Source: a virus. From it: a stretch of 42,350 bases of DNA. The stretch covers positions 1 to 42,350 of IMG/VR virus record IMGVR_UViG_3300007538_000052; one strand, written 5' to 3'. Numbering within the stretch: position 1 is the stretch's first letter; every line of letters begins with the position of its first letter. The notes under the pieces are model-generated. The model saw nothing but the letters and a program-made list of their open reading frames with translations, had not been told where the DNA came from and did not search any database. Made by a program: the position numbers and the translations under genes. Positions 13,413-42,350 of this stretch are shown piece after piece.

Positions 13413-14590
13413 TGACTATATTAAACGTAGATATTGCAGACTTAGCTAACCAAGATCGTGTTATTGAATCAGTTGGATCAGTGAGCACCGATCAACTTGG
13501 AACAGTATTAGCACAGAAATCAAAAACTGTAGCTAGTGCAAACACCCTGTCTGTTGATGAAATGGTTAATACTATTAGTTCAACTACTGGATTAGGAAAG
13601 TATGGTTTAAAACCACAGGCGCTTGAAGATGCAGGATACATTAAACCAGGAACAGTTGATAGGTTCTTAGATGATCCTGGTGCATTATCCAATGTGTTAA
13701 ACAGTCCCACGGTTTGGACTGGAAAAGATGGTATTGGTGCAGCATCAGACGTATTGGGAAGTAGTAGCATACAAACGTCTATGCAGTCAGATATACTCGG
13801 GCAAGGGTTAAACACATTACAATCAAATAAAATTATTAGCGGGCTTGAGTCTCCAGATGTAGTAGCAAGCGTCACGAGTGTGGTAGGCGATCATGGTATC
13901 GGGCCAACTAAAGATTGGTTGGGATTAGGGGATTCCGGAAGTGTGCTTGGTGAAGGGCTAAGTGCAGATGAATCGTTGAACATGGATTCAATTGCCCGCG
14001 GCGCACAATTTTCAGTCGATTTTGTGGATACTAAACTCACATCAATGTTTACCAGTGGTGGTACGTTATTGAATGATGCAACCGGCGCAATATCTGACGT
14101 TGTTGGCGGTATTAGTGGAAGTATTAGTGAACTAGCTGGAAGTATCGGTGGCATTAGCGCCATTAGTGATGTCGCTGGAAATTTAATTGGTAGTGTTTCT
14201 GGAGCATTAAGTAATGTTCTCGGTGGGTTTAGTGGGCTTCTTGGAGGACTTGGTGGACTTTTTGGAGGCAGCAGCGGCCCAGTAACTTATACCCCACCGG
14301 CAGTTACCCAAACAGTTAATCGTACTGGAGTCGACACATCTGTAATTGGTCTTATTGACAATCCCAAAGTACCGGTGCCAAATTATACCGGCATAGTTAA
14401 CGCAGCTTCATTTCAACTTCCAAGTTTGAGTGGCCTGGTAAACAATGATAATGTCAACACTGATAACCCCATTACAGTGTGCTCCTGTAGCGATCCAACT
14501 CTGATAGCACCCACGCAATCAGAATGCGAAAATGCTGGTGGAAAATGGATCTGTCATACAGTAAATAGTAATACAGGAACAATAGTATAA
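13412..14590 (+). CDS. Gly/Ser-rich structural protein of the hub region, function unknown
   Basis: 392 residues; its ATG shares one base with the gp5 stop. The N-terminal 160 residues are structured and contain GKYGLKPQALEDAGYIKPGT and SPTVWTGKDGIGAASDVLG. I recall similar arrangements beside gp5 in other marine T4-like phages. The GKYG-x-x-P-x-x-LE-x-AGY pattern is reminiscent of peptidoglycan-hydrolase-like tail proteins, which would be interesting because gp5 here lacks lysozyme; this is weak inference. Residues about 205-290 are a run of Gly/Ser/Ile/Leu repeats with hydrophobic, membrane-active-looking character. The C-terminus has a small Cys cluster, CSCSD...SECENAGGKWIC, that may bind metal or form disulfides. 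Confidence 0.5.
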   Translation: MTILNVDIADLANQDRVIESVGSVSTDQLGTVLAQKSKTVASANTLSVDEMVNTISSTTGLGKYGLKPQALEDAGYIKPGTVDRFLDDPGALSNVLNSPTVWTGKDGIGAASDVLGSSSIQTSMQSDILGQGLNTLQSNKIISGLESPDVVASVTSVVGDHGIGPTKDWLGLGDSGSVLGEGLSADESLNMDSIARGAQFSVDFVDTKLTSMFTSGGTLLNDATGAISDVVGGISGSISELAGSIGGISAISDVAGNLIGSVSGALSNVLGGFSGLLGGLGGLFGGSSGPVTYTPPAVTQTVNRTGVDTSVIGLIDNPKVPVPNYTGIVNAASFQLPSLSGLVNNDNVNTDNPITVCSCSDPTLIAPTQSECENAGGKWICHTVNSNTGTIV

Positions 14591-14964
14591 TGGCAAGATT
14601 CAAAGGCTTTAGCACCGTTAATCGATATAAAAAGTTCACAGTTACTGACAGAGATCTGGTAATACGAGATTTGTTAAACATTCTGTCTATCAGAGAAGGT
14701 GAATTGCCTGGTAAACCTGATGTTGGTACCAGAATCTGGAATTTTATATTTGAAGCCAACACACCGGAAGTAATACGGCAAATAACTGCTGAAATTCAAC
14801 GCATAACGACCTATGATCCCAGAGTAGAAGTAGTTGATGTTGTTGTATCTTCTCTAAATAACACAGTAAATCTTGAACTGGTGATAATTATTAACCCAAA
14901 CGTTTCACCAGAAACTATCAATTTCATGTTTGATCAAGACGATAATACAGTGCAGGTTGTATAA
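14590..14964 (+). CDS. 25: gp25-like baseplate wedge protein
   Basis: 124 residues, close to T4 gp25 (132), overlapping the previous gene by one base. It shows the gp25/lysozyme-like wedge pattern: DLVIRDLLNILSIREGELPG, then PDVGTRIWNFIFE, then RITTYDPRVEV and a hydrophobic closing sheet. gp25 sits in the inner wedge core with gp6 and initiates sheath assembly; its homologues occur in all contractile systems including type VI secretion. The next gene is gp6, its direct partner. Confidence 0.9.
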   Translation: MARFKGFSTVNRYKKFTVTDRDLVIRDLLNILSIREGELPGKPDVGTRIWNFIFEANTPEVIRQITAEIQRITTYDPRVEVVDVVVSSLNNTVNLELVIIINPNVSPETINFMFDQDDNTVQVV

Positions 14965-15020: not shown

Positions 15021-18000
15021 ATGGCAACAACTTCACGGCAAACAACAATTTTTGGTATTGAAGATTGGAAACGAATCTATCAAAATTATAGAGAAGCTGA
15101 TTTTCAAAGTTATAATTTCGAAACACTGAGAAAAACTTTTGTAGATTATCTACGCCAGTATTACCCAGAAAACTTCAATGATTTTGTTGAGTCAAGTGAA
15201 TTTGTGGCAATGCTTGATCTCATGGCGTTCATGGGACAAAGCCTTTCGTTCCGTGTAGATTTAAACAGTCGTGAAAACTTTTTAGACACAGCAGAGCGCC
15301 GCGATAGTGTAGTTAACCTAGCTAAATTGGTTGGTTATACACCAAAACGTAATCAAGCAGCCAGAGGATATCTAAAAGTAACCGCAATTAGCACGACTGA
15401 AAACATTTTAGACTATAATCGAAATAATCTAGCAAACGTAACAGTCAAATGGAACGACCGAACTAACAACGATTGGCAAGAACAGTTCAGAACGATTTTG
15501 AATGCTATTATGGTGAATAGTCAGAGTGTTGGTAAACCAGGAAATACACAGGATATTTTAGGTATTGCTACCAGTGAATACACAATTAACCTAGCACCAG
15601 GATTTTTGCCAGTTATTCCGTTTACAACAACTGTGGATGGAGTTAGCATGCCGTTTGAGGTTGTCAGTGGATCAAGTGTGGATAAAACTTATATCTATGA
15701 ACCACAACCACAACCAGGTGGCGACTTAAACATTCTTTATCGTAATGATGGTCTTGGATTTGGTAGTTCAAATACTGGATATTTTTTCTATTTCAAGCAA
15801 GGCACATTGCAGACAAGAGAATTCAATTTACCTGAAAAAATTGATAACAGAACAGTTGATATCAATATCAATGGTGTTAATAATAATGACATTTGGTTAT
15901 ACAAAATAAACCCGTCCAGTGGTGACATAACAGAAACCTGGACACAAGTAGATAATATCTACACAAATCAAAACCAAAATAGTGCTAATGGCAGAAAGTT
16001 TTTCAGTGTGGATTCCAGAAACTCAGATCAGATCACACTAAATTTTGGTGATGGCGTGTTCAGTGAGGTACCAGTTGGTACATTCAGAAGTTATGTACGC
16101 AGTAGTAATGGTTTGGAATATGTAATTAATCCCAACGAAATTCAGAGTGTAAGTGTTGGCTTAACTTACGTCAGTCGCAAAGGCAGATTAGAAACAGCAA
16201 CATTCACGCTGGGATTACAGGAAAATATTTCAAACAGTCGATCAAGAGAAGCACTACTTGATATCAAACGCAGAGCACCAGCCAGATTTTATACGCAAAA
16301 CAGAATGGTCAATGGCGAAGATTATAATAATTTTCCCTATGCTCAGTTTAACACAATCATCAAGAGCAAGGCAGTCAACAGATCAAACATCGGTGCCAGC
16401 AGATATCTGGATTTGATTGATCCAACTGGAAAATATTCCAGTATCAATACGTTCGGTGACGACGGGATGATCCATCGCGATCAAACATCTGACACGATTG
16501 GATTTACTTTTGTGGATGTCAATGACATTGAAAATGTTATTCGAAACGATGTTGAACCACAGTTAGCTTCCAGAAGTATGCTTCAGTTTTACTATGATAA
16601 TTTTGATCGATTTAGCCTAACATCAGCTGGTTTGTTCTGGCAATTCAGTACCAGTCTTGTGAATGAAACCACTGGATATTTTAAGAACAACATTGGTTCT
16701 CCGATTGCAATTGGTGCCGCTCTTGATGGAGCAAAACAATATTTAACCCCCCGCTGTTTAATAAAATTTGTACCACCCACTGGTCAATATTTTGATAAGA
16801 ACAACAGATTACAAACTGGATCTGCCAGTCAACCTGGTGATAAGACTTATATCTGGGCAAGCATACGAGAGCTACTGAATGATGGCACAAATGCCGGCAA
16901 TGGGAATGATAGCAACGGTGTGGGTCCAGTAACATTAAACAATTATGTGCCAACTGGCGCAATTGCATCTGTTGTGATACCTGATTTTACATCAGATTTA
17001 CCAACAAGTTTAGAGCAATCCATGATTGCTCAGATTGAATTGTACAGAAGTTTTGGCATAGGATTCGATAATGCAACCAACAGCTGGTATCTGATAACAT
17101 CATCCAATCTAAACCAAAATGGTTCGTATGCACAAACATATGCACAAGATACGTCCGGCACAGGATTAGATTCTAGTTGGCTAGCAAAGTTTACGAGTGA
17201 TGGCACATCATATACTGTTACATTCAGAGGGCTAAAATACTTCTTCTCAAGTATTGTTCAAACCAGATTTTTTTATGATGACAATCAACTGATTTTTGAT
17301 CCAAAGACTGGTAAACTAATCAATGACTATATTAAAATACTCAGAACCAACAACCAGCCAGATACGCACATCCCACTTGCTGGTGATATAGTTCTGGACA
17401 TCGTAGGACAAACTGTAGAAACTGATGGATTTGTAAACGACTTTAATGTTGAAGTCAGCTGGTCAGATACTGATAATGATAATGTTCCAGATGACCCAGA
17501 CTTTTTTGATTTGATTGTGGCATCGGATGTCAGTCCGACACAAAAACTAACATTTTTCCAAAGAACCATAGATTTTGATAACCTGGAACGGTATGTTCCG
17601 CTGGCAGAAGGAACAGTAGTATCTGTATACCCGACACAAGATGCAATCAATCTTGCCAAATATGAATATAGTGATGGACAGGTATTTTATGCCACCACTG
17701 AGCAGCAATTTTTTGAGTTGTCAGTAACTGCTGCTAATGTCAGAACAGTAACGCAAGTCACTGATTATATTGTTCGCACTGGTCGCGGGGGATTAATTTA
17801 TCAATACAGACACAACAGTCCAGATTCCAGAAGAATTAACCCAGGGTCGACCAATATTATTGATGTATATTTGGTTACTTCAGAGTACTATGCTAACTAT
17901 CAAAGATATATTCAGGATACCACTGGAACAGTTCTTGAACCAGACGTACCCACCATTGATGAATTAACAACATCATATGAATCCTTGAATGATTACAAAA

Positions 18001-18425
18001 TGGTAAGTGATAACATGGTGTTCAATAGTGTTAAATTTAAACCGTTGTTTGGTGACAAAGCAAACACCGCATTGCAAGCCACTATCAAGGTAGTTAAACT
18101 TGAAAACAGTGTGGTCAGCACAAGCGAAATTAAAAGTCGTGTTATCGAAACAATTAACCAATACTTTAATATTGATAACTGGGACTTTGGTGAAACATTC
18201 TATTTTTCCGAACTATCGGCATATATTCATGAACAATTGGGTGGAATCTTGGGCTCTGTGATATTGTTGCCAAAAGATACCTCAAAAGAATTTGGTAATT
18301 TATATGAAATCAAATCTGCGGCTAATGAAATTTTTGTTAGTGCAGCAACCGTAAATGACGTTCAAGTGGTTAATTCACTGACATCCAGTCAGTTAAGATT
18401 GACCAGTAACAGTGGAGTAATTTAA
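15021..18425 (+). CDS. 6: gp6-like baseplate wedge protein
   Basis: 1134 residues, much longer than T4 gp6 (660). The N-terminus has the typical wedge start: FVDYLRQYYPENFNDFVESS, then FVAMLDLMAFMGQSLSFRVD, then RDSVVNLAKLVGYTPKRNQA. The middle carries a J-like wedge core (FGDGVFSEVPVGTFRSYVR and NRMVNGEDYNNFPYAQ). The C-terminus, with FNIDNWDFGETFYFSELSAY and LGGILGSVILLP, matches the ring-forming end of gp6/gpJ family proteins. gp6 dimers form the ring that holds the wedges around the hub. The roughly 450 extra residues lie between the core and the C-terminal domain and are rich in strands, with a DTDNDNVPDDPD segment that may bind calcium. A late promoter lies just upstream. Confidence 0.92.
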   Translation: MATTSRQTTIFGIEDWKRIYQNYREADFQSYNFETLRKTFVDYLRQYYPENFNDFVESSEFVAMLDLMAFMGQSLSFRVDLNSRENFLDTAERRDSVVNLAKLVGYTPKRNQAARGYLKVTAISTTENILDYNRNNLANVTVKWNDRTNNDWQEQFRTILNAIMVNSQSVGKPGNTQDILGIATSEYTINLAPGFLPVIPFTTTVDGVSMPFEVVSGSSVDKTYIYEPQPQPGGDLNILYRNDGLGFGSSNTGYFFYFKQGTLQTREFNLPEKIDNRTVDININGVNNNDIWLYKINPSSGDITETWTQVDNIYTNQNQNSANGRKFFSVDSRNSDQITLNFGDGVFSEVPVGTFRSYVRSSNGLEYVINPNEIQSVSVGLTYVSRKGRLETATFTLGLQENISNSRSREALLDIKRRAPARFYTQNRMVNGEDYNNFPYAQFNTIIKSKAVNRSNIGASRYLDLIDPTGKYSSINTFGDDGMIHRDQTSDTIGFTFVDVNDIENVIRNDVEPQLASRSMLQFYYDNFDRFSLTSAGLFWQFSTSLVNETTGYFKNNIGSPIAIGAALDGAKQYLTPRCLIKFVPPTGQYFDKNNRLQTGSASQPGDKTYIWASIRELLNDGTNAGNGNDSNGVGPVTLNNYVPTGAIASVVIPDFTSDLPTSLEQSMIAQIELYRSFGIGFDNATNSWYLITSSNLNQNGSYAQTYAQDTSGTGLDSSWLAKFTSDGTSYTVTFRGLKYFFSSIVQTRFFYDDNQLIFDPKTGKLINDYIKILRTNNQPDTHIPLAGDIVLDIVGQTVETDGFVNDFNVEVSWSDTDNDNVPDDPDFFDLIVASDVSPTQKLTFFQRTIDFDNLERYVPLAEGTVVSVYPTQDAINLAKYEYSDGQVFYATTEQQFFELSVTAANVRTVTQVTDYIVRTGRGGLIYQYRHNSPDSRRINPGSTNIIDVYLVTSEYYANYQRYIQDTTGTVLEPDVPTIDELTTSYESLNDYKMVSDNMVFNSVKFKPLFGDKANTALQATIKVVKLENSVVSTSEIKSRVIETINQYFNIDNWDFGETFYFSELSAYIHEQLGGILGSVILLPKDTSKEFGNLYEIKSAANEIFVSAATVNDVQVVNSLTSSQLRLTSNSGVI

Positions 18426-18428
18426 TAA

Positions 18429-21400
18429 ATGGCACGCATCAGATCAGTTGACTTTTTGCCTGAAATTTTCAAAACCGATGCAAATCGGGAATTTCTTGGT
18501 GCTACCCTTGATCAGCTAATTCAACAACCAAAGCTAAAACGTACACAAGGTTACGTTGGCCGTAGATTCGGGCCTGGTACTAACTTTAACGATGGTTATG
18601 TTCTAGAACCATCATTACAGCGTGCAAATTATCAATTTGAACCAGCTGTCGCATTCAAAGACAATGATGGAAATGTCACAGATGCAATGACATATGTTGG
18701 CATGCTAGATGCTCTTGATGTTAAAGGAGCAAACACATCTCGTGCAGACAGATTGTTTGCCAGTCAGACGTATAGCTGGGATCCAAATATTGATTTTGAT
18801 AAATTCATCAATTACAGCCAGTATTATTGGATTCCTACCGGCCCAGATGCAGTTGATGTGAATGTTGGAAGTGCTGCATTGATTGATGATTTTGATGTAT
18901 CTGCTACTGAGGAAAGTTATTATGGTATAAGTGGATTGGTTGGTGATAACCCAACTATTACATTGGTCAGAGGTGGGTCATACACATTTAATGTTAATCA
19001 ACCAGGAAATCCATTCTGGATTCAATCAGAATCAGGCACAGATGGCACACTTAACTTTTCGCCTAATTTAAGTAGCCGTGATGTACTAGGCGTAGTCAAT
19101 AACGGTGATGATGTAGGCACAGTTACGTTTAATGTTCCAAAATCAACCGATCAAAATTTTTATTATGGTCTTAATAATATTGGCACAATAGATCTGGCTA
19201 CCATGGACAGATTTGATAGCATTCACAACAGATTGGTTTCTTTGGTAGATAACATTGATGGTATTACTGATCTTGAAGGCAAGACGCTGGTATTTTTGAA
19301 TACGCAGGCAGGTGATCCCGAAGATCTGGGTTGGGTTGATTATACTCCATATGATTCGTCCAGATTTGATCAGGGTGCTCCATATCCTGAAATTGTATTT
19401 GAACCCACCAGATACATTACCGATCAAGATGAGAGGTATGGATTATACAGAATCACTTATGTAGAACTAAACGGCAGTACATTTATAAAACTGGTCAAAA
19501 TTAGTGATATTAATATTAATGATAAGTTTAAGATTGGCAGTGGTGCAGAATACAGCAACGTTCAGTATTATAAAAACGCATCTGGATTCTTTGAAAAAAT
19601 TCCTCAACTAACTGCCCTTGATAACATTTTATACTATCAGGATGGTGTGAATCCTCTGCGTTTCGGTGTTATTCAACTGGTAGATCCAGAATCTGATGCA
19701 GTCATCAATGTCGATGATATTCTTGGAAAACAAACCTATACCAGTCCAAATGGAGTAGTGTTTACCAACGGATTAAAAATAAGATTTGCAAGTGTAACTG
19801 AGCCCAGTTTTTATCAAAACAATGAATACATTGTAGAAGGTGTAGGTCACAGCATTGAATTGATTCCAGTTTCAGAGTTGGTTACCCCGGAAACATTTGT
19901 TAACACAGATTCAGAGTTGTTTGATTTATCACCATTCGATACGCTGGGATTTGATGGCAGTTTTAATTCTCCTTTAGATCCTGATTATCTGACAATCAAA
20001 AGAAACTCAGCAGACTCAAATGCCTGGAGTCGCTACAATCGTTGGTTCCATCGAGATGTAATTCTAGCCACCGCAGAATACAACAACAGTGTCGCAAATT
20101 TTGATAGCGATCTGCAAGCCAAACGCCCCATTATTGAATTTAATGCTGGATTAAGATTGTTTAATCATGGCACACAAGCAAAACAACCTGTGGACATAAT
20201 TGATTTAACACAGGTAGATGCATTATCAAACGTTAACGGAAGTACTGGATATTTTGTTGATGGATATCAATTAATCAATGGTACCAGAATAATTTTTGCC
20301 GCCGACAGTAATGCATCTGTGCGCAATCGAATCTACACTGTACAAATTGTTGATCCTGATGATCTCAGTACAGAATATGGGAATATCATAAACCTGGTTC
20401 CGGCCGACGATACACAAGTTGTTACAGACGACACTGTGCTATGTCTGAGCGGTAATACTTTACAAGGGAAGATGTTCAGGTATACCGGGACTGCGTGGAT
20501 TGAAGCACAACAAAAGACACAGACCAACCAGGCTCCATTGTTTGATGTTTTTGATAGCAATGGGTATAGTTTTGGAGATATGGCAGCCTACCCAAGTAAC
20601 ACATTCACCGGAAGTAAATTATTTTCTTATAAGCAAGGATCAGGCAGAAATGATCCTGTATTAGGTTTTCCTCTAACATATCTAAACATCGACAATCTGG
20701 GTGATATTGTATTTGAAAACAATCAATATTCGGACACGTTCGTGTATGCAAATAATAGTACACGAACTCAAAAACAAGTCAGTGATGGATTTGTAAGAAA
20801 ATATTCATCCAGAACAGAATACGAAAACAAAATTGGTTGGACAACTAGTGTTGACCGTAACTGGCAACGCCAGGTATTCACATTCGAGTATCAGGGTAAA
20901 CCATTGTTGCTGGATATTGCACCCAGAACTGATATCACAGTGCCTGGAATAAAAGTATATGCAAACAACCAGTTCATTGACCCAGACAATTACATAGTCA
21001 CAGTTAATTCACCAGCCACAGTTACATTTAAACCAAATACAGTATCTGCAGGCACAATGGTGCAGGTTAAAATTATTAGCGACGAGGCCAGTGGTATTGG
21101 ATATTACGAAATTCCCAATAGCCTGGAAAGCAATCCGTTCAATGAAAATGCTAACACAATAACTCTGGGAACAGTCAGAAACCATTTCAATCGTTTGGCC
21201 GAAAATATTATTGCATTTGATGGTATTATTAATGGTGCCAATAACTTGCGTGATCTGGGAGACATTAGTCATTATGGAGATATCATTGTCCAACACTCGG
21301 CCCCAGTAACGCCCGCGGCATTTTTCCTGCGCAAAGAAAAGTACGATCTCTTTGGTGCATTACAGTACGTTGGCACACAATACGAAAAAATCAAATACTT

Positions 21401-34894: not shown

Positions 34895-34920
34895 AAAGCC
34901 CCGCAAGGGGCTTTATTTTT
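34895..34920 (+). terminator. Rho-independent terminator of the structural module
   Basis: Stem AAAGCCCC / GGGGCTTT (34895-34902, 34907-34914) closed by a GCAA tetraloop of the GNRA type and followed by a T-rich tail. It is nearly symmetrical with A-rich sequence on the left, but no minus-strand gene needs it. Confidence 0.92.
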
Positions 34921-34940
34921 GATATATAATCGTGTATAAT
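34912..34940 (+). promoter_or_regulatory. Possible sigma70-type promoter after the terminator
   Basis: A perfect -10 TATAAT at 34935-34940, with a second at 34925-34930. The only -35 candidate at 17 bases is TTTATT, a poor match. The -10 at 34935 lies within 7 bases of the next ATG, so that transcript would be nearly leaderless; the one at 34925 leaves about 15 bases. Some initiation signal is needed here to express region 3 after the terminator. Confidence 0.35.
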
Positions 34941-34946
34941 ACCCAT

Positions 34947-35252
34947 ATGGATACTGACAATATTATCAAACAATCACGAGCACGGTTTGATCACAATCAA
35001 GCCAAGCAGATTCTGCGTGAAAAATACGAAGCAAAGATGTTGTTTGCATACAACGGAGGCATGTGGCGTGCTGGTCCAGAATTATTAATGACTATCGCAG
35101 TATGCCCAGATGAAGACTGTGTGCTTGTCGACGAGTACAACAATCCAGTACAAATTAACACACTAGAACTTGAATTGCTTGCGCAACAACGTTGGCAAGA
35201 ACAAATGAATGGGTGGTTAAATGAATTTCAAGAACTCAGCCGTAAAAGGTAA
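34947..35252 (+). CDS. Small conserved-looking phage protein upstream of gene 4
   Basis: 101 residues from the ATG at 34947; an in-frame GTG at 34932 lies inside the promoter-like sequence and is less likely. The pattern is QSRARFDHNQAKQILREKY, then FAYNGGMWRAGPELL, then VDEYNNPVQIN and a C-terminal helix WQEQMNGWLNEFQEL. I recall similar short proteins just upstream of gene 4 in other marine T4-like phages. There are no catalytic motifs, signal peptide or membrane segment. No function is claimed. It overlaps gene 4 by 32 bases. Confidence 0.7.
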   Translation: MDTDNIIKQSRARFDHNQAKQILREKYEAKMLFAYNGGMWRAGPELLMTIAVCPDEDCVLVDEYNNPVQINTLELELLAQQRWQEQMNGWLNEFQELSRKR

Positions 35253-35610
35253 ATTTACCCCTACAAACAAATCAAAGTTTTTAGGTAAAAAAGATCCTAT
35301 CTATCGTAGTCTATGGGAACGTAGGTTTATGTTATATTGTGATCGTTCGGATGCAATACAATTTTGGGATTCGGAAAGTTTTCATATTCCATATATGCAT
35401 CCTAAAGAAAACCGTATGCGTAATTATTATCCTGACTTTTATGTTGACTATATTGACAAATACGGCAATCCGCGACAAAAGCTAATTGAGATTAAACCAC
35501 GTTACCAAATGAAATGGCATGTTAATAAGGCAAAATGGGCGGCGGCAGAGAAATACTGTAAAGAATATAATATGGAATTTCAGGTACTAACTGAGCGGGA
35601 GTTATTTTGA
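35221..35610 (+). CDS. 4: gp4-like head completion protein (PD-(D/E)XK nuclease fold)
   Basis: 129 residues (T4 gp4 is 150). KGKFTPTNKSKF near the start, SLWERRFMLYCD with E33, RNYYPDFYVDY with D72, and KLIEIKPRYQ with E90 and K92 give the layout of TnsA-like PD-(D/E)XK nucleases, as in T4 gp4 (also called gp50). In T4 gp4 is needed to finish the filled head so tails can join. The start ATG lies 32 bases inside the preceding gene; no alternative start exists further on before the conserved region. The next gene starts at a TTGA overlap with the stop codon. Confidence 0.88.
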   Translation: MNFKNSAVKGKFTPTNKSKFLGKKDPIYRSLWERRFMLYCDRSDAIQFWDSESFHIPYMHPKENRMRNYYPDFYVDYIDKYGNPRQKLIEIKPRYQMKWHVNKAKWAAAEKYCKEYNMEFQVLTERELF

Positions 35611-36293
35611 AAACCTTATATAGCTTAGGTTGTAGTTTTATGAGTGATGATACCTCTACATGTGGTTTCCCAACATTTTTACAACAGTTTTGTGAACGCA
35701 ACAAATATGAATATCATTGTATTGCCCGTCCTGGCGCTACAAATTTTGCTATTAGACTGCAAATTGATTATGCCATTAAACAGAAACCAGACTTAATTGT
35801 TATTGGCGCTACTAGTAGTGATAGAATTAATATTGTACGTAATCCGGATGGGTGGAGGTCACCTGTTGAATTAAAGCATATTGAATATCGAGGATATCAG
35901 TGTAGCAGCGAGCAAGAGTTTGATCACGATGAAGTGTTTATTGTAAGCGATACACTAGCAAATATCGTCGAAGCACAATATATTGATGTTGGTGAAGATA
36001 CTAAACAGGCAGTACAAAGATATATTGCAGATTTGCACGATATGGGACTACAGTACAACATCGATGGCTGCGTTATTAGAGACGGACTACGTGCTTTACA
36101 AGAGAGTGGACTGCGTTTCATCTTTATGCCTGGCCCAATGTTTTGGATGGGATGGAACTGGCTAGGCGATAGTTTATGGCCGCCATACGAAAAACAACCC
36201 TGGGATATGCCATTTGGCCCACATAATGTTAATAACCACAATCCGCCCGAAGCGCATGCTTTGTTTTTAGATACACTAGAGAGAATAGTATGA
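35607..36293 (+). CDS. SGNH-hydrolase-like protein with degenerate active site
   Basis: 228 residues from a TTG that overlaps the gp4 stop (TTGA), with GCGGGAG shortly upstream. The start MKTLYSLGCSFM resembles block I of SGNH/GDSL esterases, with Ser in GCS (S10). LIVIGATSSDRI (about 64-75) sits where block III G-x-N-D is expected, and NNHNPPEAH (209-217) recalls the block V loop with the Asp replaced by Asn. In the family these enzymes remove acyl or acetyl groups from sugars and lipids. The altered residues make activity uncertain. Neighbouring glycosyltransferases make a sugar-related substrate plausible. Confidence 0.55.
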   Translation: MKTLYSLGCSFMSDDTSTCGFPTFLQQFCERNKYEYHCIARPGATNFAIRLQIDYAIKQKPDLIVIGATSSDRINIVRNPDGWRSPVELKHIEYRGYQCSSEQEFDHDEVFIVSDTLANIVEAQYIDVGEDTKQAVQRYIADLHDMGLQYNIDGCVIRDGLRALQESGLRFIFMPGPMFWMGWNWLGDSLWPPYEKQPWDMPFGPHNVNNHNPPEAHALFLDTLERIV

Positions 36294-36463
36294 AACGTAA
36301 AATTTTTAGAATGCTAGTAGACATTGCAGATCGTGTTAATATTTGGTTTACTGCTAAATTTAATCTAAATCCAAAACGTCGGGTATTGGAAATTCAACAA
36401 GATTTACATACAACAATGCAAGATCTTGATAACACAATTGGAAAGGCGCTGGAAATTAAATGA
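36290..36463 (+). CDS. Small 57-residue protein of unknown function
   Basis: ATG overlaps the preceding stop as ATGA, and its own stop overlaps the next start as ATGA, so it fills the gap between the two genes exactly. The sequence starts MKRKIFRMLVDIADRVNIWF, a basic amphipathic helix, and ends in a helix with EIQQDLHTTMQDLDNTIGKA. It could be a small coiled-coil partner or membrane-surface peptide. The double ATGA coupling is the main support that it is real. Confidence 0.65.
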   Translation: MKRKIFRMLVDIADRVNIWFTAKFNLNPKRRVLEIQQDLHTTMQDLDNTIGKALEIK

Positions 36464-37197
36464 CGCAAGGTTGTTTAATATTTGCACATAATAACGGTGA
36501 TATTGATTATGTCAAACTCGCAGAACGTAGTGCTAAAAACATTAAGCAATATTTAGGCCTACCTACGACTATTATAACCGATATAGATACAAAAACTTCG
36601 AGTACACGTTGGTTCGCGGATTACGATAAAAGCGTAAAGTGGTTAAATTCTGGACGTTCACGTGCTTACGAGTTATCACCATACGATCAAACTGTATTGT
36701 TGGACGCAGATTATATTGTAAATAGCGACCAATTGTTAAATTTGTTTAGAAGTGGCCAAGATTTTCTAGCACATCGGAATGCAAACAGTGTTACTGGTAC
36801 AGGTTGGAGCAAACAGCTAAACACGTTTGGTGAATACCGTTTTCCAATGTGGTGGGCGACTGTTGTGTACTTTACAAAATCCGACACTGCACGTGCTATA
36901 TTTGACGCGATGCAGATGGTCGAAACAAACTACGAGCATTATGCTAACTTGTATAACTTTAAAAAACACCCATACAGAAATGATTATGCACTAAGTATTG
37001 CATTAAACATTGCTGACGGACATTTTAACGCAGAACAGTTCGATATTCCCTGGACACTACAAAGTGTTGTTCCCGAACACGTACTAACACGTACAGATAA
37101 CGTGTATACAGTACGCTATGACAATAAACGCATAGAATTGTCTGGCATGGATTTTCATGCCATGGGTAAAAAGCACTTGGAGGCATTGTATGATTGA
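36460..37197 (+). CDS. GT-A-type glycosyltransferase-like protein
   Basis: 245 residues. The start GCLIFAHNNGDIDYVKLAER is a Rossmann-like first strand and helix. LLDADYIV gives a D-x-D motif (D82, D84), the metal and sugar-nucleotide site of GT-A enzymes. A later YRNDYALSIAL segment and the end DFHAMGKKHL fit a GT8-like layout. The donor and acceptor cannot be read from sequence. Its N-terminus resembles that of the next gene, so the two are probable paralogues from duplication. It overlaps the next gene by 8 bases. Confidence 0.6.
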   Translation: MTQGCLIFAHNNGDIDYVKLAERSAKNIKQYLGLPTTIITDIDTKTSSTRWFADYDKSVKWLNSGRSRAYELSPYDQTVLLDADYIVNSDQLLNLFRSGQDFLAHRNANSVTGTGWSKQLNTFGEYRFPMWWATVVYFTKSDTARAIFDAMQMVETNYEHYANLYNFKKHPYRNDYALSIALNIADGHFNAEQFDIPWTLQSVVPEHVLTRTDNVYTVRYDNKRIELSGMDFHAMGKKHLEALYD

Positions 37198-37999
37198 AGC
37201 AGAACGTGGATATTTAATTGTTGCTACTAACACATCTGATGTAGATTACATTGCGTGCGCACGTGTTCTTGCAAAAAGCCTACGTTACTGGCACCCAACA
37301 GCAAAGATATGCTTGTTAACAGATACAGAATATTCAGATCCTGTGTTTGATTATGTAAAACAGTTTCCATATCCTACAGTAGGTGGATGGGCTGATGATT
37401 GGCAAGTGTTTTCTGCTAGTCCATTTAGACAAACTATTAAGTTAGAAGCAGATATGATTGTTACTGCGCCAATTGATCATTGGTGGACTATGTTGGAACA
37501 TCGCGATGTAGTAGTAACACAAGGTAGTAAAAATTTTTTACAACATACGGCAACATCAAGACACTATCGTAAAATATTTGATTTGAATAATTTGCCAGAT
37601 GTATATAATGCTATTACATATTGGCGTGTTAGTAAAACAGCAAAAGATTTTTTCTTTAGAGTAAGACATATTTTTGAAAATTGGGATGTATATAAGCAAA
37701 GTTTGCGCGGCGGATCGGGCGAAATTGCTAACACTGATTTAGTATACGCAATGGCTGCCTGTTTTATCGGTGTAGAACGTGTTACACTACCCGATACTTC
37801 GTACCCAAGTTTGGTACACATGAAAAAACACATCAATAACATCGCTGCTGATGATTGGTGTAAACAACTTGTATGGGAATTAATTGATGGAGAGTTTAGA
37901 ATTAATACTGTAAGTCAGCGTTATCCAGTACACTACCATCAAAAAGACTTTGCACAAGAATTGGAACCCGTATATGACAAACTTTTGGCAAGCACTTGA
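37190..37999 (+). CDS. GT-A-type glycosyltransferase-like protein, paralogue of the preceding gene
   Basis: 269 residues from the ATG at 37190, chosen because TTGGAGG (37178-37184) lies 5 bases upstream; an in-frame ATG at 37157 lies deep in the previous gene. GYLIVATNTSDVDYIACARV matches the start of the preceding protein. LEADMIV (E86, D88) is in the D-x-D position with Glu for the first Asp. FIGVERV and PSLVHMKKHIN follow, and the end has YPVHYHQKD, a common late His in GT-A enzymes. It probably transfers a sugar from a nucleotide donor; substrate unknown. Confidence 0.58.
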   Translation: MIEAERGYLIVATNTSDVDYIACARVLAKSLRYWHPTAKICLLTDTEYSDPVFDYVKQFPYPTVGGWADDWQVFSASPFRQTIKLEADMIVTAPIDHWWTMLEHRDVVVTQGSKNFLQHTATSRHYRKIFDLNNLPDVYNAITYWRVSKTAKDFFFRVRHIFENWDVYKQSLRGGSGEIANTDLVYAMAACFIGVERVTLPDTSYPSLVHMKKHINNIAADDWCKQLVWELIDGEFRINTVSQRYPVHYHQKDFAQELEPVYDKLLAST

Positions 38000-38279
38000 A
38001 CACGCAGAACAGCCTGCAGAACATTCAGAGTTAGAATATCGTTTATATTATAACGATCTAGGCGAACCTGTTTTTTATTCAATCGACAAAGAATTGGGTA
38101 ATTACATTATAGTAGACAAAGAAACATATGCTAGTGGACGCTATGATGTGCGAGTTATTGATGGAAAATTAATTAAGCCCAGACAATATGTTTATCAGAA
38201 ACTTGTACCAGTCGCACAAGGTATAGATGTTGCAATCGTTACTCCTGACCAAACGTGGAAACTAAAACGCTATGAGTGA
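37974..38279 (+). CDS. Small unknown protein of the glycosyltransferase cluster
   Basis: 101 residues from the ATG at 37974 (MTNFWQALEHAE), with GGAA upstream; it overlaps the previous gene by 26 bases and the next by 8. The body, LEYRLYYNDLGEPVFYSIDK then GNYIIVDKETYASGRYDVRV and IDGKLI, is a compact beta-rich fold without catalytic motifs. I do not recognise a family. The tight coupling suggests it works with the flanking glycosyltransferase-like proteins. Confidence 0.65.
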   Translation: MTNFWQALEHAEQPAEHSELEYRLYYNDLGEPVFYSIDKELGNYIIVDKETYASGRYDVRVIDGKLIKPRQYVYQKLVPVAQGIDVAIVTPDQTWKLKRYE

Positions 38280-39198
38280 TATTATTGATATTGCCGACTT
38301 GGATGTTGTGTATCTAAGTTATGATGAGCCACAGAAAGAAGAATTCTGGGTTAAAATTAAAAACATGATACCTTGGGCTGTTCGTGTCGACGGAGTAAAA
38401 GGTTCAGATGCTGCACACAAAGCAGCCGCAGAAGCAAGCACAACCGAACGTTTTGTGCTTATTGACGGCGATAATTTGCCAAATCCAGAATTCTTTAATC
38501 TACAACTAGAAATGAAAACGCCAGAGTATGAGCGGGCTGTGTTTCGTTGGAGAGCAGTTAATCATATTAATGGGCTTATGTACGGCAACGGTGGATTAAG
38601 TTGCTGGACACGTGAATTCATTCGAAACATGAAAACACACGAAGCATCAGACGGGTCTAATGATACCTGCGTAGAATTTTGTTTTGATCCATTGTACTGG
38701 TCTATGCATGATTGTTATAGTACAACATATCCAAACGGCAGTGCATTTCAAGCGTGGCGAGCAGGTTTTAGGGAAGGTGTTAAGATGTGTTTGGACCGTG
38801 GACGTAAACCGACTGAAATCGAGTTTAAGGATGCAGTGCATAAGCGTAACATGGACCATTTAACTATTTGGCACAATGTTGGACTTGATGTAGAAAACGG
38901 AGCGTGGGCGATTGCTGGTGCACGTCAAGGCACATCTATGACTATGCTTGAAGACTGGGATTACCGAGAAGTACAATGGTTCGATAATTTAGCAGAATTA
39001 TGGTCTACAACACAAAACAACGATCCGCATGAAATGATTGAATTTTATGGCGAGCGTTTAACAGGACGTTTAGATTTGCCAATGATTCTACTAGACGCAA
39101 AATCAAGTAAATTTTTTAAACATCATTATCGCAGTAATTGGCACAATATGGGTGCTACTGTACGTGAGATAGATGTTGTTAGAACACAAGAGGGATGA
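38272..39198 (+). CDS. GT-A/GT2-like glycosyltransferase-like protein
   Basis: 308 residues. The start has LDVVYLSYDEPQKEEFW, then RVDGVKGSDAAHKAAAEAST and RFVLIDGDNLP, giving a D-x-D motif (D65, D67) after the usual acceptance-loop helix. The arrangement resembles family-2-like glycosyltransferases, but the C-terminal half (FCFDPLYWSMHDCYSTTYP, AFQAWRAGFREGVKM) is not a standard acceptor domain. I recall similar proteins in marine phages, annotated as glycosyltransferases or unknown. The start overlaps the preceding stop by 8 bases (ATGAGTGA). Confidence 0.55.
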   Translation: MSDIIDIADLDVVYLSYDEPQKEEFWVKIKNMIPWAVRVDGVKGSDAAHKAAAEASTTERFVLIDGDNLPNPEFFNLQLEMKTPEYERAVFRWRAVNHINGLMYGNGGLSCWTREFIRNMKTHEASDGSNDTCVEFCFDPLYWSMHDCYSTTYPNGSAFQAWRAGFREGVKMCLDRGRKPTEIEFKDAVHKRNMDHLTIWHNVGLDVENGAWAIAGARQGTSMTMLEDWDYREVQWFDNLAELWSTTQNNDPHEMIEFYGERLTGRLDLPMILLDAKSSKFFKHHYRSNWHNMGATVREIDVVRTQEG

Positions 39199-39200
39199 TA

Positions 39201-39737
39201 ATGTATTTTAATAAAAAACATTTAGATATTAATTATAGTAGGTTTGTTAATGACGACTTTAATACACACGAAGGATCGTGCATTAAACACCAAATCACTG
39301 AGTGCGCCGATATACACCAAGAATATGGCGGTTTTCCAGATTCGTATTCTTACGATAATACAAGAATTAATCAATTATGGTATGACAACACACAAATTGA
39401 TTATGAAGATTTAGGTAAACAATTAGGTATGGAAGTAATTTCTGTTAGTGCTATTAGACAACGTCCAGGATGTGTTATTCCTTTGCACAGAGATATGTTT
39501 TATCAGATTACTAGTAAATATCCTAACGATACCAGATTAAAAGTTCGTGCTAATGTACATCTAGAAGACTGGAAAATGGGACATTTTATACAGTACGGTG
39601 ATACAGTTTTTACACATTGGAAAGCCGGCGATGCATTAATGTGGGATTCAGAGGTGTGGCATCTTGGTGCTAATGCTGGCTTTCAAGATAAGTTTACTTT
39701 ACAGGTATCAGGCTTTCTATTAGATGATAACAGTTAA
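39201..39737 (+). CDS. 2OG-Fe(II) oxygenase/aspartyl-hydroxylase-like protein
   Basis: 178 residues from the ATG at 39201. An ATG at 39195 overlaps the previous stop but sits directly on the AGAGGG binding site (39189-39194), so 39201 is better placed. The double-stranded beta-helix motifs are CVIPLHRDMF (H96, D98) and MWDSEVWHLGANAG (H154), the H-x-D...H iron triad. The usual Arg for 2-oxoglutarate, about ten residues after the last His, is Lys here (K164). Family members hydroxylate amino acid side chains, sugars or small molecules. The substrate here is unknown; it sits between two glycosyltransferase-like genes. Confidence 0.6.
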   Translation: MYFNKKHLDINYSRFVNDDFNTHEGSCIKHQITECADIHQEYGGFPDSYSYDNTRINQLWYDNTQIDYEDLGKQLGMEVISVSAIRQRPGCVIPLHRDMFYQITSKYPNDTRLKVRANVHLEDWKMGHFIQYGDTVFTHWKAGDALMWDSEVWHLGANAGFQDKFTLQVSGFLLDDNS

Positions 39738-40683
39738 GGTTAAAACTAGCGATAGTGTAGTGTGGAACACCGTGGAGGTCCATTCAAAAATAGCCCAAGC
39801 ATTATATACCAATCAGGATCTGCTAATAGACCTAAACTCAGAAGGCCCAGACTTTACAACACTTGGCATAGATGAATATATCGATACCATTAAAACTACT
39901 GTTAACTATACCGGTAACATTACTTTCCAAACTTGTAATATGCTAGAGCCGTCATCGACTTTTCCTATACACCTGGTATATAACGCACTTGAATATGAAT
40001 CCACAATAAAAAAATCAAATGATCTAAAACATTTTGGATTATTTGTCGGCCGAGGAAACGCACCAAGGCTTTACTTGTCGTCGTACCTTTATAATAATCA
40101 TCGCAATATTTCATTACACACAAATCATTTAGATTTAGACAACGAGTTCTATGCTGCTAACATTGGTCTAGAGAGACTAATGCTCGAATACAATATTACT
40201 GACATAACAGATATTGCTAACTACATTAACCAGTGCCCGATTAATACACAATCTGTTGAAATCGATAAGACTCTTGATATTAATCCTGCACAGCAATTAT
40301 TTAAGAATGACTCTGATGATTTTTTAAACAAGTACAGTCAATTTGCTATTGAGATTGTTTGTGAAACCTATTTTACCGGAAATACATTTTTCCCGACCGA
40401 AAAGATATGGCGTCCAATATTATTAAAGACTCCATTTATTGTGCAAGGCCCGGCAGGCTATCTAAAGAATTTACGCAATTTGGGATTTAAAACATTTAAT
40501 GATTTTTGGGACGAGGGATATGACGAAGATCCACATACCCACTCTATACATGAAATAACTCGTGTAATTGATACCCTAGCAAAAGAATCTACCGAAGAGA
40601 TTAGTTGGATGCTAAAGAATATGCAAGATATCTTAGATCATAATTATAATAGACTATTAGATTTATATAATGAACCAAAATAA
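39724..40683 (+). CDS. GT-B-type glycosyltransferase-like protein, two domains
   Basis: 319 residues, overlapping the previous gene and the next by 14 bases each. The N-terminal half ends with KHFGLFVGRGNAPRLYLSSY. The C-terminal half has FAIEIVCETYF, then PTEKIWRPILLKTPFIVQGP and LGFKTFNDFWDEGYDEDP, ending LDHNYNRLLDLY. A Glu plus E-K ahead of a strand resembles the donor-sugar site of fucosyltransferase/exostosin-like GT-B enzymes. The C-terminal half is clearly homologous to the ORF at 2136-2693, and the middle resembles the ORF at 2690-3244. The sugar and acceptor are unknown. Confidence 0.55.
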   Translation: MITVKVKTSDSVVWNTVEVHSKIAQALYTNQDLLIDLNSEGPDFTTLGIDEYIDTIKTTVNYTGNITFQTCNMLEPSSTFPIHLVYNALEYESTIKKSNDLKHFGLFVGRGNAPRLYLSSYLYNNHRNISLHTNHLDLDNEFYAANIGLERLMLEYNITDITDIANYINQCPINTQSVEIDKTLDINPAQQLFKNDSDDFLNKYSQFAIEIVCETYFTGNTFFPTEKIWRPILLKTPFIVQGPAGYLKNLRNLGFKTFNDFWDEGYDEDPHTHSIHEITRVIDTLAKESTEEISWMLKNMQDILDHNYNRLLDLYNEPK

Positions 40684-42082
40684 AGGTGACGAAGTAGACA
40701 AGGACTTTAAGTCAAAGTTCTTAAGTGATGCAGAAATAGCACAACAAAAATTAGATACAGTGAGTCCAAGTTTCTGCTTGGCTAAATGGAAGCAGGTAAG
40801 TTTGCATTTAACCAATGGCATGAATAACTCATGTTATCATCCACCACTACGCAAAATACCTGTAGAAGAACTCGCCGGAAATCCCGGTAAGTTGCATAAC
40901 ACTGATTATAAAAAACTACAGCGTGAAAAGATGATCGCAGGCGAACGTCCTGAGGAGTGCTTCTATTGTTGGGCAATGGAAGATAACGGAAAACTTAGTG
41001 ATAGACACTACCGTTCAGGAGAACCGTGGGCTATTGAAAAGTTTGATGAAGTTGTAGCTGACCCAATGGCAGACACTAACCCTGCGTATGTTGAGGTGAA
41101 CTTTAACTCTGCTTGTAATTTAGAGTGTAGTTATTGCTCACCCCAATTTAGCAGTTCGTGGATGCGCCAGGCAAAAGAACATGGTGCGTATCCAACAAGC
41201 GTTCCTCATAACGATCCTGTACACTTCCAAGGAGAACGTAGACCTATTCCGCATTCAGAGTATAATCCATACGTAGAAGCATTTTGGCAATGGTGGCCAG
41301 AGTTGTATCCTGATTTAAAACATTTCCGCATGACAGGCGGTGAACCACTAATGGATAAAAACACATATCGTGTGTTTGATTATGTATTAGAGAATCCAAA
41401 ACCAGACTTACACCTAAATGTAACATCTAATCTCAGTGTAGAACAAAAACTATGGGACAAATATATTGATTATGTGAAACGTATTTGTAATGAAGGTGAG
41501 AATGTTGAACATTTTATGCAATATGTTTCACTTGATGGGTTTGGTAAACAAGCAGAATATATGCGTGCTGGACTAAACTTTAATTTATTATGGGATCGTG
41601 TAAATCAATTTTTAACAGAAGTACCATATAGAAGTAGTTTAACATTTATTATTACAATGAATAATCTATCAGTAACCAGTTTAGAACATTTGTTTACTGG
41701 AATATATGGATTAAGACAACTTTATAGTAATACCTATCAGCGTGTTTGGTTTGATACTCCTGTATTGCACACTCCCAAATGGCAGAGTATGCGATTGCTT
41801 CCGGATATGTACGCAGACAAACTAGAAGATCTAATGATGTGGATGATGGAACATGTTGAAACACCACGAACACGCTTTAAAGGATTTAAAGATTACGAAA
41901 TTAAACGCCTGGACAGAGACATTGCTTGGATGAAAACACCTATTGAAAATTCACAAAAGCACAAGGGAGATTTCTATAGATTTTTTAATGAATATGACCA
42001 TCGTCACAATTATGACTTTTTGCAGGTATTTCCGGAAATGGCAGCCTGGTGGAATGAATGCAAGTACTGGGCCAATCAATGA
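40670..42082 (+). CDS. Radical SAM enzyme with N-terminal twitch-like cysteine cluster
   Basis: 470 residues. The 4Fe-4S/SAM site is CNLECSYC (C149, C153, C156), a standard C-x3-C-x2-C. MTGGEPL (222-227 core) is the SAM-binding strand, and SLDGFGKQAEYMRAG follows. Extra Cys residues lie upstream, in NNSCYHP and EECFYCWAMEDNGKLS, fitting an auxiliary cluster placed before the radical SAM core; this matches the phage N-terminal-twitch radical SAM family as I know it. Members have no assigned reaction that I know of. The context of glycosyltransferases and an oxygenase suggests chemistry on a sugar, lipid or peptide. The start overlaps the previous gene by 14 bases; the next start is ATGA-coupled. 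Confidence 0.8.
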   Translation: MNQNKGDEVDKDFKSKFLSDAEIAQQKLDTVSPSFCLAKWKQVSLHLTNGMNNSCYHPPLRKIPVEELAGNPGKLHNTDYKKLQREKMIAGERPEECFYCWAMEDNGKLSDRHYRSGEPWAIEKFDEVVADPMADTNPAYVEVNFNSACNLECSYCSPQFSSSWMRQAKEHGAYPTSVPHNDPVHFQGERRPIPHSEYNPYVEAFWQWWPELYPDLKHFRMTGGEPLMDKNTYRVFDYVLENPKPDLHLNVTSNLSVEQKLWDKYIDYVKRICNEGENVEHFMQYVSLDGFGKQAEYMRAGLNFNLLWDRVNQFLTEVPYRSSLTFIITMNNLSVTSLEHLFTGIYGLRQLYSNTYQRVWFDTPVLHTPKWQSMRLLPDMYADKLEDLMMWMMEHVETPRTRFKGFKDYEIKRLDRDIAWMKTPIENSQKHKGDFYRFFNEYDHRHNYDFLQVFPEMAAWWNECKYWANQ

Positions 42083-42350
42083 TAACATTTATTGGAACAC
42101 ATTTTGCCATTAATGAACCGTGGGGCAAACAAGAGCATTATATTATTGATACAGTAAAACGTCAAGTTGAGTTTAACTTTCCTAACGAACGTAACTTAAT
42201 AGTTAATATCACCTGGCTAGGTCCGCAGTTTAAAAATGGAATATGGGAACAGGTTTGTAGCATTAATAAGACGTACGATAATCTATTTTGGTTGGCTCCT
42301 GTTGACCCTCTAACAATAACAGAAAAACAGCGTAACGAGATTGAACAACG
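42079..42350 (+). CDS. Unknown protein, partial (runs off the right edge)
   Basis: Open frame from an ATG that overlaps the radical SAM stop as ATGA; 90 residues are visible. It starts MITFIGTHFAINEPWGKQEH and includes NLIVNITWLGPQFKNGIWEQ and NLFWLAPVDPL, with alternating hydrophobic strands of a Rossmann-like domain. No family is recognised. It shows that the coupled cluster continues beyond the window. Confidence 0.7.
   Translation, partial: MITFIGTHFAINEPWGKQEHYIIDTVKRQVEFNFPNERNLIVNITWLGPQFKNGIWEQVCSINKTYDNLFWLAPVDPLTITEKQRNEIEQ

Follow-up and report, generated by a model that had tools for sequence, protein, structure and literature searches.

Gene Content of the Locus

The DNA analyzed here (the window) is the whole stretch of 42,350 nucleotides at positions 1-42,350 of the viral record IMGVR_UViG_3300007538_000052, and its end carries a cluster of glycosyltransferase-like genes together with a gene for a radical S-adenosylmethionine (SAM) enzyme. 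A preliminary description, made from the letters alone, had reported ten overlapping genes on one strand, and all ten open reading frames (ORFs), designated A-J, were recovered on the + strand, with J cut by the window end. The reported overlaps of 4, 8, 14 and 26 bases were reproduced with internal starts for D (37190), E (37974) and J (42079), whereas the longest ORFs overlap more. The cluster had been taken to start after gp4; instead, the transcription unit seems to begin upstream of A, at the small gene p106 (ATG at 34947), with gp4 inside it. The features are as follows.

34895-34914, + strand: terminator-like intrinsic hairpin with an 8-pair stem and a T-rich tail, after the tail genes p454 and p331
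34925-34930, + strand: second TATAAT, upstream of p106
34935-34940, + strand: TATAAT, predicted -10 element of the sigma-70-like promoter of the unit (promoter score 9/12)
34947-35252, + strand: p106, small conserved protein, first gene of the unit, from its ATG (longest ORF from GTG 34932)
35221-35610, + strand: gp4-like head closure protein (phrog_218, E = 2.5e-36)
35607-36293, + strand: A, SGNH-like protein by profile linkage, TTG start, lineage-specific accessory
36290-36463, + strand: B, 57-residue ORF, in the closest relatives only
36460-37197, + strand: C, GT8/glycogenin-like glycosyltransferase by profile match to glycogenin-1, core gene
37190-37999, + strand: D, GT8-like paralogue of C, core gene (longest ORF from 37157)
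37974-38279, + strand: E, small conserved protein (longest ORF from TTG 37950)
38272-39198, + strand: F, predicted GT-A fold in the N-terminal half (model, DGD motif), most widespread marker of the module
39195-39737 (or from 39201), + strand: G, putative 2-oxoglutarate (2OG)-Fe oxygenase, accessory (PF05118 below cut-off)
39724-40683, + strand: H, glycosyltransferase-like protein of predicted GT-B fold (model, structural matches), variable member
40670-42082, + strand: I (RS1), predicted radical SAM enzyme, first of five (NF033640, 324.7 bits)
42058-42350, + strand: J, second GT-B-family protein, open at the window end (internal start 42079)

Two sets of related viral loci were used. Loci L001-L080 are the best 80 of 94 loci found through I (62 close and 18 distant), so the presence of radical SAM genes in them is by design. 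The second set, anchored on F, holds the best 80 of at least 594 F relatives in one viral collection and served as an independent test, although it shares at least five contigs with the first set. The locus counts given below for gene order, gene presence and late boxes include near-identical loci, such as L025-L028.

Radical SAM Enzymes

The operon continues in a longer contig of the same phage (L001), which is 100% identical to the window over I and holds four further radical SAM genes downstream of it (13571-14926, 15664-16950, 16947-18539 and 18526-19857). The single radical SAM enzyme of the preliminary description is therefore correct for the window, but the operon has five (RS1-RS5), and the clearest novelty of what had been proposed as a candidate undescribed system, RS2-RS5, lies past the window end, in L001. 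All five paralogues pass the curated cut-off (170 bits) of NF033640, the NCBIfam model of twitch domain-containing radical SAM proteins (N_Twi_rSAM), with 324.7, 311.7, 396.3, 332.6 and 291.1 bits, and the assignment of I to this enzyme class was thus supported. I was the only window gene named in the NCBIfam scan, and PHROGs gave it radical SAM families. The motif CxxxCxxC, predicted to bind the SAM-associated cluster of RS1-RS5, was found in 313 of the 315 family ORFs of at least 300 residues in L001-L080, and seven cysteines were invariant in 26/26 aligned members: those of CxxxCxxC and C36, C55, C97 and C100, which are candidate ligands of an N-terminal auxiliary cluster. These features support the prediction that RS1-RS5 are radical SAM enzymes. 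PF13186 (SPASM) was also above its cut-off in RS3, RS4 and RS5 of L001, in an N-terminal position.

In a tree of the 315 family ORFs, five main groups (RS1-RS5) hold 296 sequences and 19 fall outside; the groups are cuts of a midpoint-rooted FastTree tree, and the RS5 node had a support of 0.03 in a second tree. Between 5 and 12 NF033640 matches (E ≤ 1e-10, a few of them under the cut-off) were present in each of 14/14 viral records, whereas 5/14 control genomes had a match and 0/14 passed the cut-off.

Glycosyltransferases

The preliminary description had read C and D as GT-A paralogues, F as a third GT-A enzyme and H as a GT-B enzyme, and all of these assignments were upheld. The profile of the C/D family matched glycogenin-1 (E = 1.3e-5, over query positions 16-118), and in the family alignment D84 and H233 were invariant and K237 nearly so. 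The DxD together with the C-terminal H/K of C and D is presumably a GT8-type motif; the profile match and the conserved D84, H233 and K237 therefore point to a GT8-like GT-A fold. Single-sequence Pfam searches with C and D gave no match, and in PHROGs both fall in an unnamed family.

The model of F (mean predicted local distance difference test score, pLDDT, of 91.4) supports a GT-A fold in the N-terminal half. Residues 3-162 resemble GT-A enzymes, with B4GALNT1 at Z 9.4 and a root-mean-square deviation of 3.1 over 139 residues, followed by rows that were mostly GT-A or nucleotidyltransferase. The top Foldseek row for F was a capsid glycosyltransferase of PBCV-1 (E = 8e-5), with a template modelling (TM) score of only 0.30. 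The DGD motif was conserved in the F alignment, with D65 invariant. The model of H (pLDDT 85.6) supports a GT-B fold: nearly all of its 50 structural rows were GT-B (Z 8.2-9.6), most of the alignments spanned the whole model, and the top rows were EXT1/2 (Z 9.6), TarM, the T4 glucosyltransferases and SenB (best Foldseek E = 6.7e-4). FUT9 and an alpha-1,3-fucosyltransferase were among the many tied GT-B rows. J, which is 358 residues long in L001 (11389-12465), belongs to the same family as H by clustering and alignment, and its GT-B fold is predicted from the family alignment with H. No Pfam family, PF00852 included, was found in any of the 24 GT-B family members scanned, and profile searches of PDB sequences with F and with the GT-B family gave no credible match.

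Elsewhere in the genome (window 2136-2693, - strand), a 185-residue ORF next to the SbcCD genes shows a match to part of H (39% in L001) and is, from this match, a predicted short GT-B-related paralogue.

Conserved Order of the Module

RS1-RS5 were all present and in order in 46 of the 62 close loci, 36 of these without extra copies. Among the other 16, ten end within 0.4 kilobases (kb) of the last radical SAM ORF, L043 ends 1.6 kb past it, and five (L007, L038, L039, L053 and L057) lack an RS member in the call set. The order C/D-F-RS1 was kept in 59/59 close loci holding all three, so that a search for the same neighbourhood, which the preliminary description had proposed, did not find the homologues scattered singly. 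Within the 62 close loci, C/D were present in 60, F in 59, p454 in 59, p106 in 49, GT-B genes in 45, E in 43 (ORF level), the family f10 in 42 and a carbamoyltransferase in 35. All 18 distant loci hold F and a radical SAM gene, and the remaining genes thin out. In the F-anchored set, C/D (80/80), p454 (80/80), at least one radical SAM gene (77/80), RS1 (76/80) and two or more radical SAM genes (66/80) were recovered; the module is therefore real, with p106-C/D-C/D-E-F-RS1 as its usual minimum, and a chance co-occurrence of its genes was rejected on the counts of this set. Substitution rates were also compared, dN being lower than dS in every comparison with a defined dS (L001 against L002, L004 and L005; many cells were undefined or saturated).

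The conserved core is p106-C-D-E-F-RS1. In most cases RS2 to RS5 come after it in fixed order, and f10 and the carbamoyltransferase often do so too; the GT-B and sugar genes are lineage-specific insertions. A, B, G and gp4 are local, lineage-specific passengers outside the core (at ORF level, G in 6, gp4 in 5 and B in 3 of the 62 close loci). The proposal that the ten genes form one pathway thus stands for the conserved glycosyltransferase/radical SAM set and fails for these four.

Two of the passengers had been given enzymatic names. SGNH hydrolases carry a GDS block I and an HxxxxGH block V; A has GCSF and a C-terminal His, with no Pfam match near cut-off, and a profile made from the hits of A extends to members that have GDSF and H-x-x-x-x-G-H motifs. 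A is accordingly a putative SGNH-like protein, by profile linkage. G matched PF05118 (Asp/Asn beta-hydroxylase) at 15.6 bits, below the cut-off of 22.6 (E = 0.015), with an HxD...H seen by eye, and its earlier designation as a 2OG-Fe oxygenase is weak. Relatives of the core protein E have 100-157 residues and no Cys-rich tail.

The accessory carbamoyltransferase has both its N- and C-terminal Pfam domains (E = 1.6e-35 and 1.1e-46), and other inserted or trailing genes encode UDP-glucose dehydrogenase, a GDP-mannose dehydratase-like epimerase, an FkbM methyltransferase and a further radical SAM protein. Among the Pfam matches listed (25 of 45 families) for 84 non-redundant accessory proteins, DUF6071 was found in 9, Radical_SAM in 5, epimerase in 4, AMP-binding in 2 and DegT aminotransferase in 1. 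The carbamoyltransferase, UDP-glucose dehydrogenase, epimerases and FkbM point to sugars. One phage, accounting for one of the 84 proteins, has a SAM synthetase with all three domains.

Genomic Setting

On its 5' side the module follows genes for a baseplate wedge (phrog_10646), the 4413-residue virion structural protein p4413 (phrog_10938), p221, the tail-fibre-like p454, p331 and p106. p221 and the late sigma factor matched jumbo phages best (Phosso, then Atu_ph07 or Pseudomonas jumbo phages), with further matches in Klebsiella, Erwinia and Salmonella jumbo phages, and module-bearing contigs reach 340 kb in the I-anchored set and 367 kb in the F-anchored set. Searches of 50,697 phage records with the cluster (blastn) and with C and F (tblastn) gave no matches, and I matched two Vibrio records at 25%.

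A 45-73-residue ORF (f12) lies between p4413 and p221 in L006, L011, L012 and 25 other loci and resembles the p221 N terminus; in Atu_ph07, a gene that looks GIY-YIG-like by eye comes after an f12-like ORF of 42 residues (L174:15127-15255). An intron or endonuclease may interrupt p221. f12 was considered as a precursor peptide and rejected, being outside the unit, absent from the window and similar to the p221 N terminus.

Predicted Promoter, Terminator and Timing

Between p331 and p106 the order is hairpin (34895-34914), TATAAT at 34925 and 34935, and ATG (34947). The hairpin is an exact match of L001:4226-4245, which was found by a terminator scan of that contig; the scan gave 14 sites against 11.1 expected, and this stem was the strongest. 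G+C-rich hairpins precede p106 in many relatives (by eye). Promoter matches were counted on distinct upstream sequences of L001-L080 and of L178-L257, with the start of p106 set at the first ATG in the first 16 codons and that of other genes at the longest ORF. Sigma-70-like matches of at least 10/12 were found in 22/46 p106 upstreams against 8/763 for other genes, and in the F-anchored set in 19/65 against 18/833; the p106 promoters of L049, L063 and L066 match 12/12. The sequence TATAAATA, which we take to be the T4 late box consensus, occurs within 80 nucleotides upstream of p454 in 29/61 loci (18/80 in the F-anchored set) and had 0 hits between p331 and p106 in the loci tested. These counts weaken the idea that the unit is simply expressed as a late operon together with the tail genes. 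A host-type polymerase would read the unit apart from the late tail genes, and the unit is probably not late. In several phages of L001-L062, the -10 element ends about 5-10 nucleotides before the p106 ATG, which suggests leaderless or very-short-leader transcripts from the predicted p106 promoter.

Relatives in Bacteria and Other Phages

A search of bacterial genomes with RS1 gave 75 loci with identities of 33-55%, 52 of them from Bdellovibrio-like metagenome-assembled genomes (MAGs) and at least 6 being phage contigs in bacterial bins. Of the 144 genomes in the phylum of the Bacteriovoracaceae contig L084, 41 pass the NF033640 cut-off, and in some of these several of the genes lie near one another. 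The L084 genes match best, in order, RS2, RS5, RS4, RS3, RS4, RS1, RS2 and RS1, the last of them in the opposed orientation; upstream of them an ObgE-like gene was seen by eye. Bacterial RS2 sequences nest in the phage RS2 clade (support 0.989), whereas the bacterial members of the other groups do not nest in this way, which implies at least one transfer. Of 124 scanned proteins, 118 of them beside a bacterial radical SAM gene, GT2 was found in 7 and GT1 in 6, among the matches listed (25 of 124 families), and F-like proteins adjoin RS3-like genes in L161, L163 and L166. In the Bdellovibrio-like loci L099, L102 and L109, a 53-59-residue peptide ORF and a PqqD-like protein lie near the RS1 homologue on the opposite strand (by eye; PqqD was not confirmed among the bacterial-neighbour Pfam matches listed), and Wzm/Wzt-like ABC genes were seen by eye in L099 and L102. 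Flagellin genes stand within a few genes of RS1 homologues in L086, L105 and L139 (Bdellovibrio-like and other MAGs), where flagellin modification by these homologues is possible.

The NF033640 family itself shares with RS1-RS5 the N-terminal auxiliary Cys set and CxxxCxxC, and the five L001 paralogues pass its cut-off; the name of the model states no function, and the phage operon differs from it in being an ordered five-paralogue array. Among phages, radical SAM cassettes with glycosyltransferases occur in the host recognition regions of pelagimyophages, for which the available part of the report gives neither an ordered array nor a promoter (PMC7029224); unlike these, the present phage is closest to Phosso, Atu_ph07 and other jumbo phages in p221 and sigma factor. 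The T4-like marine environmental genome TARA_ERS488813_N000010 is similar in its many radical SAM genes (12), which were read there as Fe-S metabolism, but is set apart by its description, in the accessible portion of which no glycosyltransferase link or gene order appears (PMC5332604). In the Burkholderia jumbo phages FLC6 and S13, genes for a cupin, a radical SAM/Fe-S oxidoreductase and a 2OG-Fe oxygenase lie close together (gp70-gp82), with two to five radical SAM-like genes and, as far as the available descriptions go, no glycosyltransferase, which sets them apart as well (PMC8066314, PMC11898562).

The cultured phages Atu_ph07 (Agrobacterium) and Phosso (Sinorhizobium) carry a radical SAM set in the same position, after the p4413, p221 and p454 homologues. 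However, the three Atu_ph07 enzymes tested fail NF033640, two of them carrying C-terminal SPASM matches, and no C/D, F or GT-B match was found in either phage by the profiles used. Between the radical SAM genes of these phages (L174:21062-21952 and L173:24306-25226) lie proteins that are 46% identical (38% by tblastn) and whose last 18 residues, [FY]CH[ST]SCHASCH[NS]SRSRR, are identical at 15. This Cys-His tail is a candidate for a radical SAM-modified tail; the Phosso protein had no relative in viral_contigs. In the Vibrio phage K566, three NF033640-like radical SAM proteins score 202, 154 and 193 bits (cut-off 170), and one of the three aligns with RS1 at 25% identity across 60% of its length. 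The phage also has two glycosyltransferase-like genes, GT8-like and GT-B-like by eye, but no F or C/D profile match. The ordered radical SAM array, its invariant Cys sets, the promoter and the link to the bacterial arrays were not found in the open-access literature searched. The operon may belong with phage glycan-modification cassettes, and a categorically new pathway is possible.

Proposed Pathway and Alternatives

The best explanation, which we hold tentatively and at a little under an even chance, is that the window end is the first half of a phage glycan-building operon that starts at p106, applies consecutive radical steps and has the host envelope as its destination. Host RNA polymerase would read the unit before the late virion genes; the GT8 pair, F and the GT-B enzymes would assemble an oligosaccharide from nucleotide sugars; and the radical SAM enzymes would then act in turn on this glycan, each performing one radical step (oxidation, epimerization or deoxygenation at an unactivated C-H) by means of a SAM-bound [4Fe-4S] cluster and one auxiliary cluster. 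The caps (carbamoyl, methyl and the like) would differ by lineage. The finished product, probably a modified surface sugar, would go to the host envelope, more likely than to the virion, where it could change receptors and shut out competing phages. It is the accessory genes and the bacterial neighbours that suggest a glycan. The stricter proposal, that five twitch-type radical SAM enzymes in fixed order each carry out one C-H step on the same phage-built glycoconjugate and are expressed by the host polymerase before virion assembly to rebuild the cell surface, is possible but somewhat less likely than not. We know of no five-step radical SAM pathway on one scaffold in any phage.

Several observations weigh against this explanation. 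The main ones are that radical SAM arrays can stand without glycosyltransferases, L084 having eight of these enzymes with no recognized glycosyltransferase between them, and that related radical SAM families act mostly on peptides. RS1 was the sole RS type within 8 kb in 11/80 F-anchored loci, some of them short stretches, and RS2-RS5 are therefore common but not obligatory. The other, weakly matching NCBIfam families are mostly peptide maturases. As regards timing, the promoters are predicted from consensus matches and are not mapped starts; that of p106 in the window scores just 9/12, and sigma-70-like sites over the L001 region are at chance level (81 against 75.9 in shuffles). The operon itself contains a 12/12 site, TTGACA-17-TATAAT (L001:12362-12390, +), close to where the second GT-B gene ends and ahead of RS2-RS5, which may therefore be promoted separately. 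The terminator can be read through, which would allow late transcription; TATAAATA occurs inside the cluster, far downstream, in 6 loci and is absent from the whole window (0 against 4.6 expected by chance).

The strongest alternative is virion decoration, in which the pathway would glycosylate and radically modify tail or fibre proteins (p454, p331) and thereby tune adsorption or protection. The position of the cluster, downstream of the baseplate, phrog_10938, p221, p454 and p331 genes, agrees with it (p454 in 59/62 close and 80/80 F-anchored loci), as does the placement of another radical SAM set there by Atu_ph07 and Phosso, around the protein with the conserved Cys-His tail. The PBCV-1 enzyme at the top of the Foldseek rows for F glycosylates capsids, but the match is a weak one, at TM 0.30, with many GT-A enzymes close to it. 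No recurrent Cys/His-rich tail was found in the window lineage, except at the C-terminal end of an f13-like family. The virion glycan, one of the products suggested in the preliminary description, loses further weight because the unit appears to have its own sigma-70-like promoter behind a terminator rather than the late box that often precedes p454, with 0 TATAAATA between p331 and p106 in the loci tested. Virion decoration is thus considered unlikely.

More doubtful still is peptide or protein maturation of the kind known for ribosomally synthesized and post-translationally modified peptides, in which the radical SAM enzymes would cross-link or epimerize a polypeptide and the glycosyltransferases would cap it. 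SPASM domains are typical of peptide-modifying radical SAM enzymes, and PF13186 was above cut-off in RS3, RS4 and RS5 of L001; some bacterial RS1 homologues lie near the 53-59-residue ORF and the PqqD-like protein (L099, L102 and L109, by eye), and flagellin domains were found in 3/124 scanned proteins near the bacterial set. Nevertheless, no recurrent precursor-like ORF of at least 45 residues was found in the phage operon, B being limited to the closest relatives and E having 100-157 residues without a Cys-rich tail, and the recognized accessory genes are largely sugar enzymes.

DNA hypermodification, with glycosyltransferases and radical enzymes building a base modification that protects phage DNA, would suit non-late expression and the alignment of the GT-B models with the T4 alpha- and beta-glucosyltransferases (Z 9.2 and 9.1). 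These scores are, however, tied with those of dozens of other GT-B enzymes, and no known base-modification gene was recognized among the locus proteins scanned (for accessories, among the matches listed), which leaves this explanation improbable. A soluble small molecule made during infection, aminoglycoside-like or a signal, ranks just below it as quite improbable: consecutive radical SAM, aminotransferase, carbamoyl and methyl enzymes are typical of natural-product loci, and DegT and AMP-binding genes are among the accessories, but no exporter or resistance gene was recognized among the accessory matches listed and the benefit to a lytic phage is unclear. That these are unrelated auxiliary genes of a plastic region is highly improbable given the fixed core order (46/62, 59/59), the conserved Cys and the one promoter position, even though GT-B, SGNH, oxygenase and sugar genes come and go and the many radical SAM genes of one T4-like genome were published, in the part available, as general Fe-S metabolism (PMC5332604).

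Significance

If the glycan-building explanation is true, the operon would encode a viral tailoring pathway that is both unusually elaborate and common, with at least 594 F relatives in one viral collection, of which the best 80 were examined. The conserved phage synteny ties NF033640, a family named without a function, to glycan genes, with a weaker hint from bacterial chromosomes, and the substrate of the family therefore becomes testable. The timing signals suggest, in addition, that glycan genes lying beside phage tail genes need not be late genes.

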